NCBI GenBank assembly: GCA_015061615.1
Contig: SUWE01000012.1
Location: 1 to 58,011, forward strand
From: Lentisphaerota bacterium
GTDB lineage: Bacteria > Verrucomicrobiota > Lentisphaeria > Victivallales > Victivallaceae
DNA: 58,011 nucleotides
Direction of reading: 5' to 3'
Shown: in pieces, positions 2,138 through 17,858 of the stretch
Layout: each line of letters starts with the position of its first letter
Position numbering within the stretch: position 1 is the first letter of the stretch
The notes under the pieces: model-generated
Database searches by the model: none
Told to the model about the DNA's origin: nothing
What the model saw: the letters and a program-made list of their open reading frames with translations, nothing else
Made by a program: the position numbers and the translations under genes

Positions 2138-3154
2138 TCAGCGCTTGAAAAAAGCCTTTATCCTGAGTTTTGCATTTTCCGTTATATTGCGGTAAAACAG
2201 AAAAATATCTGCGGCGTGCAAGCTGCCTTTGGCATCATCAAAAAATGGATGATCGCGGTATTCTTCTGCAGGTCTGACCACCAGCGCTCCCCGTTCCATG
2301 TCGATTTGAGCGGTGCAGAAGTTCGGTATCGCTTCAGTAAGACTGCCGTCTTTATTCCAGAATACCGCTCCTCGGCTGTACTTTTCTGATGCCGCAAGAT
2401 CATCGGTGCGCCAGTTCAATGGATTTATACAATAGTAATTTCCACCAGTGAAAGTATCTTCTTCGCCTTTTTCTGCCACTGAATTCCAGGTGATGATGAC
2501 CCCTGTATCAAATGATCCTTTGGCAAGGCGCAAATGGTTGTCAGGCGCAAAATCTTTCGGCATTTTCGGGTATCCGATAAGATAGGCGGCAACGAGACGC
2601 TTGCGTATTTGCTCATCTTTGAGTTCGCTTCGCATCACCTCTAAAAGTGCCATCGCTCCCTGACTGTGTCCAAAGAGAATAAACGGGCGGTTTTTATTGA
2701 AGTGCTTCAGATAAAAGCGGAATGCATTGCGCAGGTCTTCTATTCCCGGGGCAATAGTTTCCAATACCATATTGTTTTCTTTTACCGCCTTTATTGCTCT
2801 GCGGTATTCGGTTTGACGGTAAAATGGCACAAAGATCCTGCCGACTCCAGTAAATGCGCCAGCCATCACAGGAATGTAACGGTATGCCCGTTCACAGCTC
2901 CTCTGGTCGCTCCAATCCATAAATGCGTGGTCTTTGTGAGAAACTATTGTCGGATAGGCAATGAAGATATCTGCCTCAAAATCTGAGGTCGTTTCACAAA
3001 CAACCCAGTTTGCGGCAAGAGAGTAATCGACAGGCACACTGATATTACGCAGTTCATCTGATCTCTGAACGGCTGAAAAATCAAGTCCTCTGAAACTGCA
3101 TCCGGAAAGCAGGATGAGAAGAACAGAGAGCTGTAAAAGGCGGATAAAACGCAT
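2138..3154 (-). CDS. DUF3089-type alpha/beta-hydrolase lipoprotein
   Basis: 338 residues. The N-terminus is a lipoprotein signal with lipobox LLSGC, giving an acylated Cys19. The body matches the DUF3089 alpha/beta-hydrolase pattern: ADIFIAYPT, a VPFYRQ segment, and the nucleophile elbow FGHSQGAM (Ser164). It is the last gene of the LPS operon, and its ATG overlaps the stop of the preceding gene by one base (TAATG), so translation is probably coupled. An esterase or deacylase acting at the cell envelope is plausible. The substrate cannot be read from sequence. Confidence 0.7.
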   Translation of the reverse strand: MRFIRLLQLSVLLILLSGCSFRGLDFSAVQRSDELRNISVPVDYSLAANWVVCETTSDFEADIFIAYPTIVSHKDHAFMDWSDQRSCERAYRYIPVMAGAFTGVGRIFVPFYRQTEYRRAIKAVKENNMVLETIAPGIEDLRNAFRFYLKHFNKNRPFILFGHSQGAMALLEVMRSELKDEQIRKRLVAAYLIGYPKMPKDFAPDNHLRLAKGSFDTGVIITWNSVAEKGEEDTFTGGNYYCINPLNWRTDDLAASEKYSRGAVFWNKDGSLTEAIPNFCTAQIDMERGALVVRPAEEYRDHPFFDDAKGSLHAADIFLFYRNITENAKLRIKAFFKR

Positions 3155-5430
3155 TATTCAACGTCCGGCATTACTTCGATATTGCCGATGGCGCGCAGAT
3201 CTTCCGAGCCGACATCACTGCGGATGATATCGCTGAACTGTTTTCTGCCGTTGCTGCGTATCCACGGACGGCGGGGACGTTCCGCAGTCAACACCACCTC
3301 TTTGGTATCGACTGTATAGACCGCCTGATCGCCGCCGGCACGCTGAAGATTGCCTTTATTGTCCTTGCGCAGCAGGACGACTTCACGTTTGCAGACGATG
3401 CGCTTCAAATCCTGGGAATCGGAGATCGCGATGCGTGACGGAGCAGAGTTTTCACCCATATCCATTTCAAACGGATCGGCATCCAGCGCATCTTCTTCGG
3501 AAATTGTCTTTTCAACCGGCTTTTTATTGCCGTTTTCATCGACCGCGGTTTCAGGCACCGGAGCCGCTCCGGTGAAAACATACATATCTTTGCAGAAAAT
3601 CTCTGTTCCGCTGTCGTGGATGGAGACATTGCCGTGAAATTCCGAGTAATCCGAAAGCAGGTCGCTCATCGCATTGGCGGCTTTCAGGGTGCGCGCAAGT
3701 AGCTTGCCCTCTTTTTTATTGAAGGAAGTCGCCGTTACTGAACCGTCGCAGAGGATTTTTACCAACTGCGCTCCGCCGGATTGTATCATGCCGGGGGTCG
3801 GTTTGACTCCGGGGGGCAGGTCGCGGAAAAAGAGGGTGAGGATATCCGTTTTCAGCTCATCTTTATCTTTGAGCATCAAAACTTTTCCGGTGGCGATGAT
3901 TTTGGTTACCGTCTTGTTTTTTCCTTCCATTCCTGCGGCAAGCGGTGCGCCGGAAGGAGTGTTTTCTGCGGTTTTCTCATCAACTTTTCTGTCGGCGAGA
4001 AAGATATCCAGCCGGTCACTGTCCAGACATGCTTTGCCGTCGCGGATTTTTACATCATTGTAAAAGACGATTTTGTTGCTGCGGTAGTTGAGTTCCGCCT
4101 GCTTTGACGTGACTGTACTTACGGAAACGATTTTTTTGCCCGGAGTTTCCGGAGCATTTTTCTCAGAACGGCTGACTATTTTTACACTGCCGTTGGCAAA
4201 GATGAGATCGACCTTATGTCCGGAACCTTTTTCATCTTCTTTGAGATGGACGCGCAGACTGTCGGTGTAAAGCGAACTTGTCTGGTCAACGGCGATGACA
4301 TTGCCGTGAAAGTTGGCGATATTCTCTTTGCCGTCAAAATTTGCACGGTCGGAAAATATCGTGCGGGTACGCTCAATGAGTCCTTTTTCATCGCGGACGA
4401 CCGATTTTATCCGGCAGTCGCGCATGACAAACATGCGGTCAGCGTGGCGTAGCAGTTCGATACGCTGTCCGGTAAGCTGGGTATCGCTGCCGCGGGTGAG
4501 GGTCGGTTTTTCTTCGCCGCTGTCTCCGGTGAGGATGATAAGTTCGCGTTTGACATCGTATTCAAGGTGTTCGGAACGTGAAGTCTGTACTCCGTTTTTC
4601 TCTTTTGCGGGATCTTCCGGATTCTGGACGAGCAGAACATTGCCGTCGGCAAGGATGCGGCTGACGCCGTCAAGAATCGCTTTTTCATCTTCCGGAACAT
4701 CAGCTTTCTTTGCCGGAGCCTCTTTTTTATCATCGTTTTTGTCAGCAAGATATGCGGTGAGACGGTCGCAGGTCATCGTATTGCGGCCGTCGATCACTTT
4801 GACATTGCCGATTAGCATGATCTCATTGTTTTTCATATCTATACGCAGAGAATCCCCGGTTGCGATGGCATTTTTCTGCTGTTTGGGAACCGGAGAACCT
4901 GTAAGTATCTTACGCGGATCGGTTCCCGTATCCCGGACGATGATGCGGACATCGGAGTTCACTTCAATTACCTTGTTTTTGAAGTCTGCTTTGAATCCAA
5001 TTCCGTCAAGGTCAAATTGCGGGTGACGGAAAAATATCTTTTTATCGCCGAAGGCAACAGCATTGTTCTGGTCGATGAAACACTTCTGCGTGAAAATCAC
5101 ATATTCGCTGATATTGTGGCGGTTTTTCCAGAAATTCAGAATGAACGGCAGTTTTGAACCCAGCGGATAGATTTTTGTCTGCCAGCCGTCGGGAATCTTG
5201 TCAACGTCGATTTTTTCCAGCAGTGTGTCGATGAACGTGTTGTTACAATCGACCAGACGACCGTCGCGTTCACCATCCTGAGCAAAGACGATACGTTCCA
5301 GAGTATCTTTTTTGTAGAAGGGGATTTTGATATGCTTGAGATTCAATCCCTGCATATCCTCGATCCCTGCGGCATTGGCGCTGAATATCGCCAGCACAAG
5401 GGCGAGTGCGGATAAAATTTTGATTTTCAT
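3154..5430 (-). CDS. Multi-domain OstA/LptA-like LPS-transport protein
   Basis: 758 residues with a signal peptide (about 1-21). The mature part contains repeated OstA-like units in which a beta-strand pair ends in GNV or GNI: MLIGNVKVIDGR, NFHGNVIAVDQ, FHGNVSIHD, RAIGNIEVMPD. Each is followed by a T/SDxLxxxL stretch. This resembles several LptA/LptC-type beta-jellyroll modules in one chain, far longer than LptA (about 185 residues), and there is no obvious LptD barrel C-terminus. The start overlaps the kdsC stop by 4 bp (ATGA), and the gene lies with kdsA and kdsC, as lptA and lptC do in Proteobacteria. A periplasmic LPS bridge function is inferred. Charged linker regions separate the modules. 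Confidence 0.7.
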   Translation of the reverse strand: MKIKILSALALVLAIFSANAAGIEDMQGLNLKHIKIPFYKKDTLERIVFAQDGERDGRLVDCNNTFIDTLLEKIDVDKIPDGWQTKIYPLGSKLPFILNFWKNRHNISEYVIFTQKCFIDQNNAVAFGDKKIFFRHPQFDLDGIGFKADFKNKVIEVNSDVRIIVRDTGTDPRKILTGSPVPKQQKNAIATGDSLRIDMKNNEIMLIGNVKVIDGRNTMTCDRLTAYLADKNDDKKEAPAKKADVPEDEKAILDGVSRILADGNVLLVQNPEDPAKEKNGVQTSRSEHLEYDVKRELIILTGDSGEEKPTLTRGSDTQLTGQRIELLRHADRMFVMRDCRIKSVVRDEKGLIERTRTIFSDRANFDGKENIANFHGNVIAVDQTSSLYTDSLRVHLKEDEKGSGHKVDLIFANGSVKIVSRSEKNAPETPGKKIVSVSTVTSKQAELNYRSNKIVFYNDVKIRDGKACLDSDRLDIFLADRKVDEKTAENTPSGAPLAAGMEGKNKTVTKIIATGKVLMLKDKDELKTDILTLFFRDLPPGVKPTPGMIQSGGAQLVKILCDGSVTATSFNKKEGKLLARTLKAANAMSDLLSDYSEFHGNVSIHDSGTEIFCKDMYVFTGAAPVPETAVDENGNKKPVEKTISEEDALDADPFEMDMGENSAPSRIAISDSQDLKRIVCKREVVLLRKDNKGNLQRAGGDQAVYTVDTKEVVLTAERPRRPWIRSNGRKQFSDIIRSDVGSEDLRAIGNIEVMPDVE

Positions 5431-15493: not shown

Positions 15494-16504
15494 TCAGAAA
15501 AATTTACTTGTGTGAAGTCCGCGAAGACGGACGAGTGTATTTTTCTTTACCAGACCAGGTTTGTCAACACGAACCCAGCATTTTTTGTTTTCAAGGTAAT
15601 ACTGGTCTTTTTCAATGACAATTCCTGAAGCGAAGGGCATTTCAATAAGCTCTCCTGTATCATCATCAACACTATACTCAATAAAGTCAACGGTTGAGTT
15701 GATCTGAGCACCAAGGTAAGTTCCGATATTGACCAATGCTGCTTTACCTTCACCTTTGGTCGCCAAAACTTTTGCAGGGGGACCGTACATCATTGCCAGT
15801 CTGGCAATTACTCTGCCGACAGCATCATCGATCGCCTTTCTGAAAAGTTCCTTATCACCGTTTTGACCGAGTTCAGATTCCCCTCTGACCAAAAAATCAA
15901 TGGTGCTTAAATCAGTCACATTGACCAGTGAAACACGGAGAGTTGCTTCGGCTCTGGTATCCAGACTCTTTGTGATTTCAACTCCACCCTTAATGGCATC
16001 GCCAAGAGTATCGTCGCGCTTTGCAACTATGGAACCTGCGAGTGATGTTGCTTGTTGACCGATGCCGACCCATTTGTCTTTAACAAATTTACAGCTGACA
16101 AGTTTATAGGTTATCATATAGTCAGTTGCATCAACTTTTGTTTCAACTTTTTCTCCATCCATTACTTCTGCTGTTGCATTCATTTTTGTGATGGAGCCGA
16201 GTTGTTTTGTGGCAACAATCTGAAAAAAGCTCAATGAATTGAGAGATACGGAGAGTTTCTCGGAAAGATATTCCCCTTGTTTTTTCATCGCAGGGGTGAT
16301 CTCTGTCGATGGCTCAAGGGTGACACGCATTCTTTTTCCGTATTTTGCTTTGATTGCATCGTCGATTTCTTTGCTGTTTTTCAGTGATACCGATTCTCTG
16401 TCAAACTTGGTTATTTCCAATTGAGCGATAGGAGTAACGCAGCCTGAAATCAGCAGGCTCAATCCGGCAATCATAAATATTTTGGTCAAAATTCTGTTTT
16501 TCAT
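15494..16504 (-). CDS. Lipoprotein, distant CsgG/TolB-like, first gene of the exported-protein run
   Basis: 336 residues from the ATG at 16504, selected for the lipoprotein signal (LSLLISGC, Cys22) and AGGG upstream. A start nine codons earlier falls in the leader. The mature part has alternating strands and helices (EKLSVSLNSLSFFQIVATKQLG, split: EKLSVSLNS, FFQIVATKQ) and a C-terminal strand-rich portion, VNIGTYLGAQINSTVDFIE. A CsgG/TolB-N-like fold followed by a small beta domain is plausible but weaker than for 14091-14954. It is preceded by a long leader holding the structured RNA described at 16658-16921. Confidence 0.6.
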   Translation of the reverse strand: MKNRILTKIFMIAGLSLLISGCVTPIAQLEITKFDRESVSLKNSKEIDDAIKAKYGKRMRVTLEPSTEITPAMKKQGEYLSEKLSVSLNSLSFFQIVATKQLGSITKMNATAEVMDGEKVETKVDATDYMITYKLVSCKFVKDKWVGIGQQATSLAGSIVAKRDDTLGDAIKGGVEITKSLDTRAEATLRVSLVNVTDLSTIDFLVRGESELGQNGDKELFRKAIDDAVGRVIARLAMMYGPPAKVLATKGEGKAALVNIGTYLGAQINSTVDFIEYSVDDDTGELIEMPFASGIVIEKDQYYLENKKCWVRVDKPGLVKKNTLVRLRGLHTSKFF

Positions 16505-16541
16505 CTTTTTCCCTTTGTTTAAGAAAAACATTTTTATATTC

Positions 16542-16582
16542 GCCGTTCGTTATGTGAAGTATACAGGCAATGTGTGAACGGC
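16542..16582. promoter_or_regulatory. Hairpin in the leader of the exported-protein run
   Basis: GCCGTTC (16542-16548) and GAACGGC (16576-16582) are perfect 7-bp arms, 38 bp upstream of the start at 16504. GGCAGCG is directly repeated just beyond. It could be an operator or a leader hairpin. No clean promoter was seen between here and the start codon. Confidence 0.35.
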
Positions 16583-16657
16583 AGCGGTCGGCAGCGTTGT
16601 TTTTTTTTAAGTCTTTAGAAAATTTACCATCAGGTTCCCCCCCCTGTGTTGAGGAAT

Positions 16658-16685
16658 AAAAAAAGACACATTCCGAAGAAGTGTC
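16658..16685 (-). terminator. Intrinsic terminator with UUCG loop
   Basis: On the minus strand GACAC-TTC pairs with GAA-T-GTGTC (one bulged base) around a TTCG loop, followed by seven T (16664-16658). It ends the structured RNA or acts as an attenuator for the genes from 16504. It is 318 bp past xseB, too far to be obviously dedicated to that gene. Confidence 0.75.
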
Positions 16686-16921
16686 CATCTCTTCGCCTAC
16701 CACAGCGATACAAATCCACACTTGACCGAAATGTGTCAAAACCCGAATGGTCAAGACACACCGATTCTAAAAGTGGATTTATAATACGTCTTTTATTTGA
16801 AGTGGTAGTTCAGAGATGGACGATTACAATCAGTTTGTCAGAATTTTTTTATTCAGTTGTTCTTTTTGCCGTTAAAACCTTTATTTTGTTACGGTTAATT
16901 CTGTGTCGCACAGAATATTGA
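16658..16921 (-). ncRNA. Candidate structured RNA, about 260 nt, with pseudoknot and own promoter/terminator
   Basis: Read on the minus strand from a predicted start near 16921. A 5' hairpin (ATTCTGTG/CACAGAAT, 16898-16905 with 16909-16916) is followed by nested perfect helices. These are P1, 9 bp (16683-16691 with 16813-16821), P2, 7 bp (16697-16703 with 16802-16808), P3, 8 bp (16712-16719 with 16773-16780) and P4, 6 bp (16722-16727 with 16749-16754). A fifth pairing, TGTGTC (16732-16737) with GACACA (16755-16760), crosses P4 and would form an H-type pseudoknot. A UUCG-looped terminator ends it at 16658-16685. P1 and the terminator share three bases (16683-16685), so they could compete as in a riboswitch. 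It may be a free-standing RNA or a cis-acting leader of the gene run starting at 16504. I do not recognise a known class. A rod-like 6S RNA was considered, but the pseudoknot argues against it. Confidence 0.55.
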
Positions 16922-16927
16922 CCCTAT

Positions 16928-16956
16928 AATATAGTGCCTTTATAATGTTATTTCAA
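16928..16956 (-). promoter_or_regulatory. Promoter of the structured RNA / exported-protein leader
   Basis: On the minus strand TTGAAA (16956-16951), a 17-bp spacer and TATATT (16933-16928). The predicted start at about 16921 lies just before the 5' hairpin of the RNA. It is located between the xseB stop and the RNA, with no other gene to serve. Confidence 0.65.
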
Positions 16957-17002
16957 GTTTTATTTTTCTGAAAATCAAAAAATGTTTTACCGCTGTTTAT
17001 TT

Positions 17003-17281
17003 TCAGAAAGGAACGGAGTCGCTCCTTGAGCTGCCCGCATCAAAATCCGTCCATTCGCCCTCAGCGCCGTTGTCACGGGTAAGCAGCAGGATCTTCTTTT
17101 CCAAACCTTCAAGTTTACTTCGGCAGTGGGCGGTGAGTGCCTTCCCTTTTTCAAACTCCTCCATAAGCTGATCGAGGGTCTGCCCGCCGTTTTCCATTTT
17201 TGCCACTGTCTTTTCCAGTTCCGCCAACGCCTCTTCAAAAGGCATCGCCGCTATATCCTGCGGAGTTTTATTTTCCTGCAT
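17003..17281 (-). CDS. xseB: Exodeoxyribonuclease VII small subunit
   Basis: 92 residues. XseB coats the long stalk of XseA in the single-strand-specific exonuclease VII. The helical hairpin block is typical: MPFEEALAELEKTVAKMENG, then QTLDQLMEEFEKGKAL, then CRSKLEGLEKKI. Usual length is about 70-85. The extra acidic tail (EGEWTDFDAGSSRSD) is not unusual. GAGGAA precedes the ATG. The large subunit is not in this window. Confidence 0.92.
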   Translation of the reverse strand: MQENKTPQDIAAMPFEEALAELEKTVAKMENGGQTLDQLMEEFEKGKALTAHCRSKLEGLEKKILLLTRDNGAEGEWTDFDAGSSRSDSVPF

Positions 17282-17350
17282 AGTTCATTCCTCAATTTGC
17301 ATATTATCTTTTTTTCAATAAAATATATCCCGCTTTTCTGTAAATTCAAG

Positions 17351-17378
17351 TTGAAAAAGAGTGAAATAAGCGTATATT
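17351..17378 (+). promoter_or_regulatory. Promoter of the oxygen-defence operon
   Basis: TTGAAA (17351-17356), a 16-bp spacer and TATATT (17373-17378), 93 bp before the superoxide reductase start. Divergent from xseB. Confidence 0.55.
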
Positions 17379-17471
17379 ATAGCTGTGGATAAATGATGGC
17401 AGCAATGCCGTTTATCCGCAGGTTGTTTTAATTTTCGGGTGTGCGCGGTGGAAAAAGAGGAGTTTTTTATT

Positions 17472-17858
17472 ATGAAACGGAGTGATCTTTACCGTTGTCC
17501 GGTCTGCGGTTTGCAGATCGAAGTGACTGTCGCATCTTCTGCGGATATTTCCGCCCCGCTCTGCTGCGGGCAGGAAATGAAATTGCAAAAGATGAACTCT
17601 ACCGACGGTGCCGGCGAAAAACATCTGCCGGTCGCTGAAAGTATTGAAAACGGAATACTTGTCAAAGTCGGTTCCGTTCCGCATCCGATGACTGAAGAAC
17701 ATTATATAGAGTGGATAGAGGTTATCAACGGTTCTTATGTGAATCGTTGTTATCTCAAGCCTGGCGATCAGCCGCAGGCGGCGTTTTATCTGCCGCTTTC
17801 ACCAAAGCTGATAATCCGCGAAAGCTGCAATATCCACGGTGTGTGGCAAAAATCATGA
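17472..17858 (+). CDS. dfx: Desulfoferrodoxin (superoxide reductase, two-iron class)
   Basis: 128 residues from the ATG at 17472, with GAGGAG 9 nt upstream. A GTG further up would add a non-homologous tail. The enzyme reduces superoxide to peroxide without making oxygen. The N-terminal desulforedoxin domain has all four iron ligands (Cys9, Cys12, Cys31, Cys32). The catalytic domain carries the EKH motif (Glu49-Lys50-His51), His71, His77, Cys119 and His122, a complete square-pyramidal site. First gene of an operon with a flavodiiron protein and rubredoxin, its usual partners in anaerobes. Confidence 0.95.
   Translation: MKRSDLYRCPVCGLQIEVTVASSADISAPLCCGQEMKLQKMNSTDGAGEKHLPVAESIENGILVKVGSVPHPMTEEHYIEWIEVINGSYVNRCYLKPGDQPQAAFYLPLSPKLIIRESCNIHGVWQKS

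Follow-up and report, generated by a model that had tools for sequence, protein, structure and literature searches.

Does the minus strand at positions 16658 to 16956 of the 58,011-nucleotide stretch of Lentisphaerota DNA analyzed here (the window) encode a structured RNA, and if so, what could that RNA do? A first-pass annotation, made from the letters of the sequence, had suggested a new structured RNA belonging to no recognized class, which would act either as a free small RNA or as a riboswitch or attenuator. We found that the minus-strand RNA at 16658-16845 is a member of a larger family with very strong covariation (Table 1). The 321-nt minus strand of 16640-16960 folded at -88.5 kcal/mol; its shuffles averaged -62.85 (z of -4.97), and none of 100 equaled it. 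The nested helices that it described are present on the minus strand and conserved in relatives: the minimum free energy fold included P1, P2, P3, and a P4-like hairpin, and inverted pairings joined 16683-16692 with 16812-16821 (I14; 10 nt, 100%) and 16709-16719 with 16773-16783 (I16; 11 nt, 91%). A mechanical ORF list has candidate ORFs of 117 amino acids (minus strand) and 91 amino acids (plus strand) that overlap the RNA. No tandem repeats were detected at 16000-17500 of the window, and its own assembly has one copy of the RNA.

The signals at the two ends of the RNA were borne out to different degrees. The proposed 5' hairpin was found, as was the overlap between the outer helix and the terminator, with the 10-bp form of P1 sharing three bases (16683-16685) with the UUCG hairpin. 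The promoter-like site TTGAAA-17-TATATT is in the sequence, but is weak evidence because the region has many such sites; the 3 kb scanned held 17 promoter-like sites against a shuffled mean of 5.3, and an overlapping site on the plus strand scored 11. Likewise, the UUCG-type terminator can be read in the sequence as a C(UUCG)G hairpin and then a U-run, but was absent from a simple terminator scan, which probably did not list the hairpin because of its bulge.

Table 1. Positions of the RNA elements and neighboring features in the window.
Feature	Positions	Strand	Basis or remark
Sigma-70-like promoter TTGAAA-17-TATATT	16928..16956	-	Scan, 10/12 matches; weak
5' hairpin near presumed transcript start	16898..16916	-	8 bp (I23); such hairpins enriched among relatives
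P0 5' strand (crosses P1 and P2 as a pseudoknot)	16819..16823	-	Covariation and swap test
P0 3' strand	16786..16790	-	Covariation and swap test
P1 5' strand	16812..16818	-	A1 covariation
P1 3' strand	16686..16692	-	A1 covariation
P2 5' strand CUACCAC	16802..16808	-	A1 covariation
P2 3' strand GUGGUAG, also loop of hairpin PKh	16697..16703	-	A1 covariation
PKh 5' strand (short hairpin around P2 3' strand)	16705..16708	-	A1 and A3 covariation
PKh 3' strand	16693..16696	-	A1 and A3 covariation
P3 5' strand	16773..16782	-	A1 and A3 covariation
P3 3' strand	16710..16719	-	A1 and A3 covariation
Strand a (P4 5' side)	16750..16764	-	A1 (83-84% of cells paired) and fitted A3
P4 3' side	16726..16741	-	Covariation; strand b (proposed switching strand) is 16726-16737
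Strand c', before U-run	16665..16676	-	Partner of b (12 bp) or, alternatively, of d
Strand d, 5' arm of local UUCG hairpin	16678..16685	-	A1 covariation; overlaps P1 extension
U-run	16658..16664	-	Sequence; conserved in A1
First downstream ORF, lipoprotein-like by eye	15494..16504	-	Start in ORF list 16531; 16504 is an inner ATG

A DNA similarity search detected the RNA in 24 of 100 genomes, its own included. Alignment A1 consists of 34 unfitted copies from this search, the partial copies L020, L030, and L037 having been left out, and 28 of these copies (without the six most divergent) were used to build covariance model R1, with P0, PKh, and the b:c' pairing kept outside the structure used for building. 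Within the window's phylum, R1 gave 78 matches spread over 36 of 387 genomes, the window's own included, with two or more matches in 21 genomes and up to seven in one. Some of these matches belong to divergent subfamilies that precede genes for secreted-nuclease-like proteins and EcoRI-type methylases, and the 81 R1 matches among the fetched loci form alignment A3. In the same search of 387 genomes, same-genus genomes that are 95 to 97% complete, such as G006, G017, G026, and G032, gave no match.

Relatives outside the phylum were found by scanning genome contigs for the pattern ACTACCAC N78-108 GCTGTGGTAGGC, which matched at least 118 stretches. We read the 80 matches listed and dropped two, L134 as coding and L213 for an architecture not seen; those listed came mostly from Bacteroidota (many from Prevotella), Lentisphaerota, and Kiritimatiellota. 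Also among the matches listed were single Phycisphaerae and Delongbacteria records (L189 and L196), in which P1 could be discerned by eye without an R1 match. Four viral contigs matched the pattern, three of them also matching R1, and a 301-base stretch of one viral-contig copy had no match among 50,697 phage records. R1, which derives solely from the window's own relatives, gave 50 matches with E values no higher than 0.01, located in 47 of 74 pattern-set sources, a yield that the pattern itself favors. A second model, R2, built from 34 pattern-set members, found 1, 1, 2, 0, and 7 copies in five genomes; the one without a copy is from Pedobacter and had given a pattern hit. The distribution of the family is broad yet patchy: the pattern and R1 span phyla, but R2 under stricter filters matched only 2 of 247 Bacteroidota genomes, the centre genome included.

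Comparison of these homologues supported P0 to P3, PKh, and b:c' in turn. Pairs of P1, P2, P3, P4, and PKh stood near the top of the column-pair ranking for A1. With a structure of P0, P1, P2, P3, PKh, and b:c', 91.0% of A1 cells were paired against 79.8% after shuffling and 36 to 45.1% after sliding, and 175 cells had changed on both sides against 56.1 in shuffles, a count that none of 500 shuffles reached. Replacing b:c' with P4 and the local hairpin gave 87.8% (77.4% shuffled) and 216 two-sided cells (75.0 shuffled). For the 80 distinct A3 members fitted to R1, 93.1% of cells were paired in the b:c' structure, with 668 two-sided cells against 171.0, and 91.2% in the structure with P4 and the local hairpin, with 827 against 209.7. 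Compensatory changes thus exceed both shuffled and slid controls, as expected of a structured RNA under selection, and homologues keep the helices by two-sided changes, an outcome whose failure the annotation had set beforehand as a refutation. We regard the conserved structure of the family as nearly certain.

Single helices gave a similar picture. On A1, P1 was paired in 97.9% of cells with two-sided changes in all 7 pairs, P2 in 100% with such changes in 6 of 7, and b:c' in 97.5% with such changes in 7 of 12. P0 was paired in 91.4% of cells on A1 and 78.2% on A3 (two-sided changes in 3 of 5 and 5 of 5 pairs), and PKh in 91.2% and 92.9%. P3 reached 93.0% on fitted A3 and only 69.9% on unfitted A1 because the A1 alignment is poor there. 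We also applied an alignment-free swap test, in which a member's strand is paired with its own partner or with that of another member, to 150 of 163 members (duplicates and those too close to an end dropped) or, for b:c', which requires a U-run, to 139. The member's own partner was better in 82% of cases for P0, 98% for P1, 80% for PKh, 93% for P3, and 89% for b:c', and in 100% for P2 when compared solely with members having a different strand. Since pattern-set members were chosen through P2 and part of PKh, that set is no test of those two helices.

Two knots are conserved, P0 crossing P1 and P2, and hairpin PKh, whose loop forms P2. The loop of PKh has 8 bases, a leading U and then the seven that make up the 3' strand of P2, and bridging a 7-bp deep groove with a single-base linker is standard pseudoknot geometry. 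Neither is the crossing pairing put forward in the first-pass annotation. We took that pairing as UUGACC (16749-16754) with GGUCAA (16722-16727). Although present in the window, it lacks conservation, with 49.4% of cells paired against 47.4% after shuffling and 103 of 500 shuffles as high, and is peculiar to the window.

The 3' part of the RNA offers strand b more than one partner. Directly before the U-run, b pairs with c', and 117 of 139 members (57 of 69 and 60 of 70) reach 8 bp or more, and such a conserved stem immediately preceding a U-run is what a transcription attenuator should have. Strand a would pair with the same b within P4, for which 83 to 84% of A1 cells were paired. P4 is conserved as a whole, but its strongest covariation sits in the upper part, above b, and two-sided changes occurred in 3 of the nine pairs that overlap b. 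In a swap control on the 125 members with a b:c' of at least 7 bp, the own a:b pairing won 68% of comparisons (64% in the Lentisphaerota set and 75% in the pattern set), and helices of at least 5 bp formed in 112 of 125 own pairs against 80% of swapped pairs. The count of an a:b pairing in 138 of 139 members carries little weight because swapped pairs often reach 5 bp too. Together, the sequence comparisons strongly support b:c', and only moderately the overlap of P4 with b.

Strand c' has a second possible partner in d. On A1, the d strand of the local hairpin was paired in 91 to 94% of cells with two-sided changes in 3 of 8 pairs, but own d:c' beat swapped d:c' in only 66% of comparisons in the same control, a weak result. 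In two groups of 59 and 66 members, the b:c' duplex had median energies of -24.8 and -24.2 kcal/mol with no loop penalty counted, the local fold holding a and b was weaker at -18.5 and -13.9 kcal/mol, and the local hairpin at c' had -8.9 and -5.4 kcal/mol. In the Lentisphaerota main clade d:c' can form whatever b does, and therefore a:b alone would not permit read-through there. A further pairing inside b:c', P5, was better with its own partner in 76% of comparisons in the pattern set. A pairing between the Shine-Dalgarno (SD)-like motif and the U-run side (GAGG with CCUC) was seen by eye in several sequences, failed in many, and was not counted.

We next considered where members lie relative to genes. 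Among 138 testable members, the first downstream ORF shared the strand of the RNA in 121 and lay on the opposite strand in 17 (12 of 150 members were too short to test), and the median distance from the U-run to the downstream start was 54 nt. Upstream ORFs showed little bias, with 65 of 124 on the same strand, 59 on the opposite strand, and none found for 17 members. Although the ORF caller behind these strand counts and distances is crude, this consistent position just before the start of a same-strand gene is that of a cis-regulatory leader, and we consider the leader position of the family strongly supported. Of the annotation's two alternatives, the cis-acting branch is favored because of this same-strand bias. 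In the window, the likely gene start lies about 154 nt beyond the U-run, and the lipoprotein-like ORF found there, which had no Pfam match, is followed by others that include a CsgG-like one.

By sequence comparison, the downstream genes are diverse. The 121 ORFs fell into 77 sequence clusters, two of which are unusable stubs. Pfam and PADLOC searches covered 106 of them, each cut at 320 amino acids, with duplicates, stubs, and five poor ORFs omitted; the 106 proteins matched 98 Pfam families, and SNase (7), zinc ribbons (7), and Sel1 (3) were among the commonest of the 25 families shown. We did not find a pathway shared among the 121 ORFs, which is usual for riboswitches though not strictly required. 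This diversity suggests a general or second-messenger-like signal and not the metabolite of one pathway. DNA methyltransferases were also frequent among the 106 proteins (alignment A5; EcoRI methylase 4, C5 methylase 3, and D12 methylase 2). PADLOC models for SNase and methyltransferases match downstream proteins, but imply no defence system.

Considering these findings, we lean toward a family of cis-acting, transcription-attenuating 5' leaders that are riboswitch-like and use a switch between a:b and b:c'. The promoter would start a transcript with the 5' hairpin, the pseudoknotted core (P0 to P3 and PKh), and an expression platform, in which b would have two possible partners, strand a ahead of it (forming hairpin P4) and c' before the U-run. 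Transcription would stop once b:c' forms; in the main clade of Lentisphaerota, d:c', the local UUCG hairpin, would have the same effect. With b held by the core and P4, RNA polymerase would continue into the gene tens of bases beyond, and a signal (a small molecule, an ion, or a protein) would tip the balance between the pairings. We infer that c' terminates transcription in the cell, that a:b and b:c' are the alternatives of the switch, which of the two is the ON state, and that some signal tips them. A more specific version, which we offer tentatively and hold to be possible but doubtful, is a new riboswitch class of Lentisphaerota, Kiritimatiellota, Bacteroidota, and some of their phages, with an interlocked-pseudoknot core and an unrecognized general signal, which would spread through genomes as a promoter-plus-switch module capturing unrelated genes.

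The leader might instead bind a protein or RNA polymerase, as a protein-responsive attenuator, a processive antitermination element, or an mRNA-protecting 5' structure, and not act as a small-molecule switch. Its shape is conserved more than its sequence, and few unpaired bases look conserved by eye, which would be unusual for a metabolite-binding core. A patchy spread could also track a trans-acting partner, and 5' hairpins are enriched near the presumed start. A protective structure, however, would not need a conserved b:c' stem at the U-run, and we judge this reading unlikely overall. We find it quite unlikely that the RNA works in trans as a free small RNA that has a promoter and a terminator of its own, behind which a gene lies by chance or is reached by occasional read-through. 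Such an RNA would fit the promoter-like site, the terminator-like 3' end, and the several copies in some genomes, and in the main clade of Lentisphaerota its local hairpin might form constitutively, but the contrast between downstream and upstream strand bias and the short median distance to the gene would then have no reason.

In at least one genome, G050, the leader looks to have been duplicated as a unit together with its promoter. Pairs of the eight copies in G050 align from 90 to 160 nt before the core at furthest (some from 24 to 56 nt), and the alignment ends 1 to 79 nt beyond the model's end, after which different ORFs follow. It is very improbable that the RNA is a mobile element or repeat that duplication has spread and whose structure is incidental: six of the eight G050 copies form one clade, copies share flanks, and L088, L100, and L104 hold tandem copies, but compensatory changes in several helices across phyla indicate selection on RNA structure. 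The tandem copies lie close together on the same strand in each case, at 992-1152 and 1839-2007 in L088 and at 883-1051 and 1442-1597 in L100, each with an SNase-like ORF behind, and at 3001-3166 and 3439-3601 in L104, each with an ORF behind.

We compared the family with known classes. At the gathering threshold, Rfam 15 gave no match in the window and none at the loci of 20 relatives. At E values up to 10 around the RNA, six sub-threshold snoRNA, CRISPR-repeat, and miRNA hits appeared, which we took as chance, and at E values up to 1 a search of 8 further loci gave no match at the RNA; an Rfam match was the second outcome by which the annotation would have been refuted. Transcription-terminating riboswitches such as those for c-di-GMP occur in many copies before unrelated genes. 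The family resembles them in its 5' leader position, structured core, several copies per genome before diverse genes, and a stem that precedes a U-run and may compete with another pairing, but differs in its P0 and PKh pseudoknots and in having no Rfam riboswitch match. In intrinsic-terminator attenuators and T-box leaders, termination depends on which of two partners a strand pairs with, as we propose here. Unlike T-box leaders, the family has no Rfam T-box match, and no tRNA-type specifier or leader peptide was identified, although the core is preceded by an SD-like motif that lacks an ATG. Acido-Lenti-1 (RF01687) is likewise reported from Lentisphaerae, being listed for Acidobacteria and Lentisphaerae in PMC2864571, but is marked there as not cis-regulatory, and the Rfam models had no match in the window or at the 20 relatives' loci.

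The portions of the published literature covered (including passages of PMC2864571, PMC8040213, PMC6429828, and PMC11109978) contain no description of this RNA; a nameless entry in large candidate lists is possible, and PMC8040213 reports thousands of RNA candidates. With compensatory changes in homologues and no Rfam match, the proposal of a new structured RNA of no known class is supported, and we conclude that this is a well-supported RNA family without an Rfam 15 match, probably of the attenuator or riboswitch kind. If our preferred reading is true, varied accessory genes of gut and rumen bacteria (for secreted nucleases, lipoproteins, zinc-ribbon proteins, and DNA methyltransferases) would answer one RNA-sensed signal, nameless so far within the searches made. 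Module-like spread would also show how a gene gains RNA control by joining a promoter-plus-leader unit. The covariation model of the family is good enough for immediate design of tests.

Other observations concerned the surroundings of the core. An SD-like motif lies 25 to 75 nt before the core in 69 of 78 Lentisphaerota-set members, against 19% of 50-nt windows from the same loci, and is followed by an ATG within 3 to 14 nt in only 2 of the 78. Hairpins of unrelated sequence 30 to 105 nt ahead of the core score at least 14 in 40% of these 78 members and in 19% of shuffles. In the viral contigs (L252 to L255), the pattern precedes members of one protein family (a cluster of four). Finally, the window copy follows xseB (17003-17281), which lies upstream of it, and in two order-level relatives (L023 and L024) the upstream ORF is xseA-like by eye, hinting that the xseB/xseA neighborhood is an old, conserved location of the RNA.
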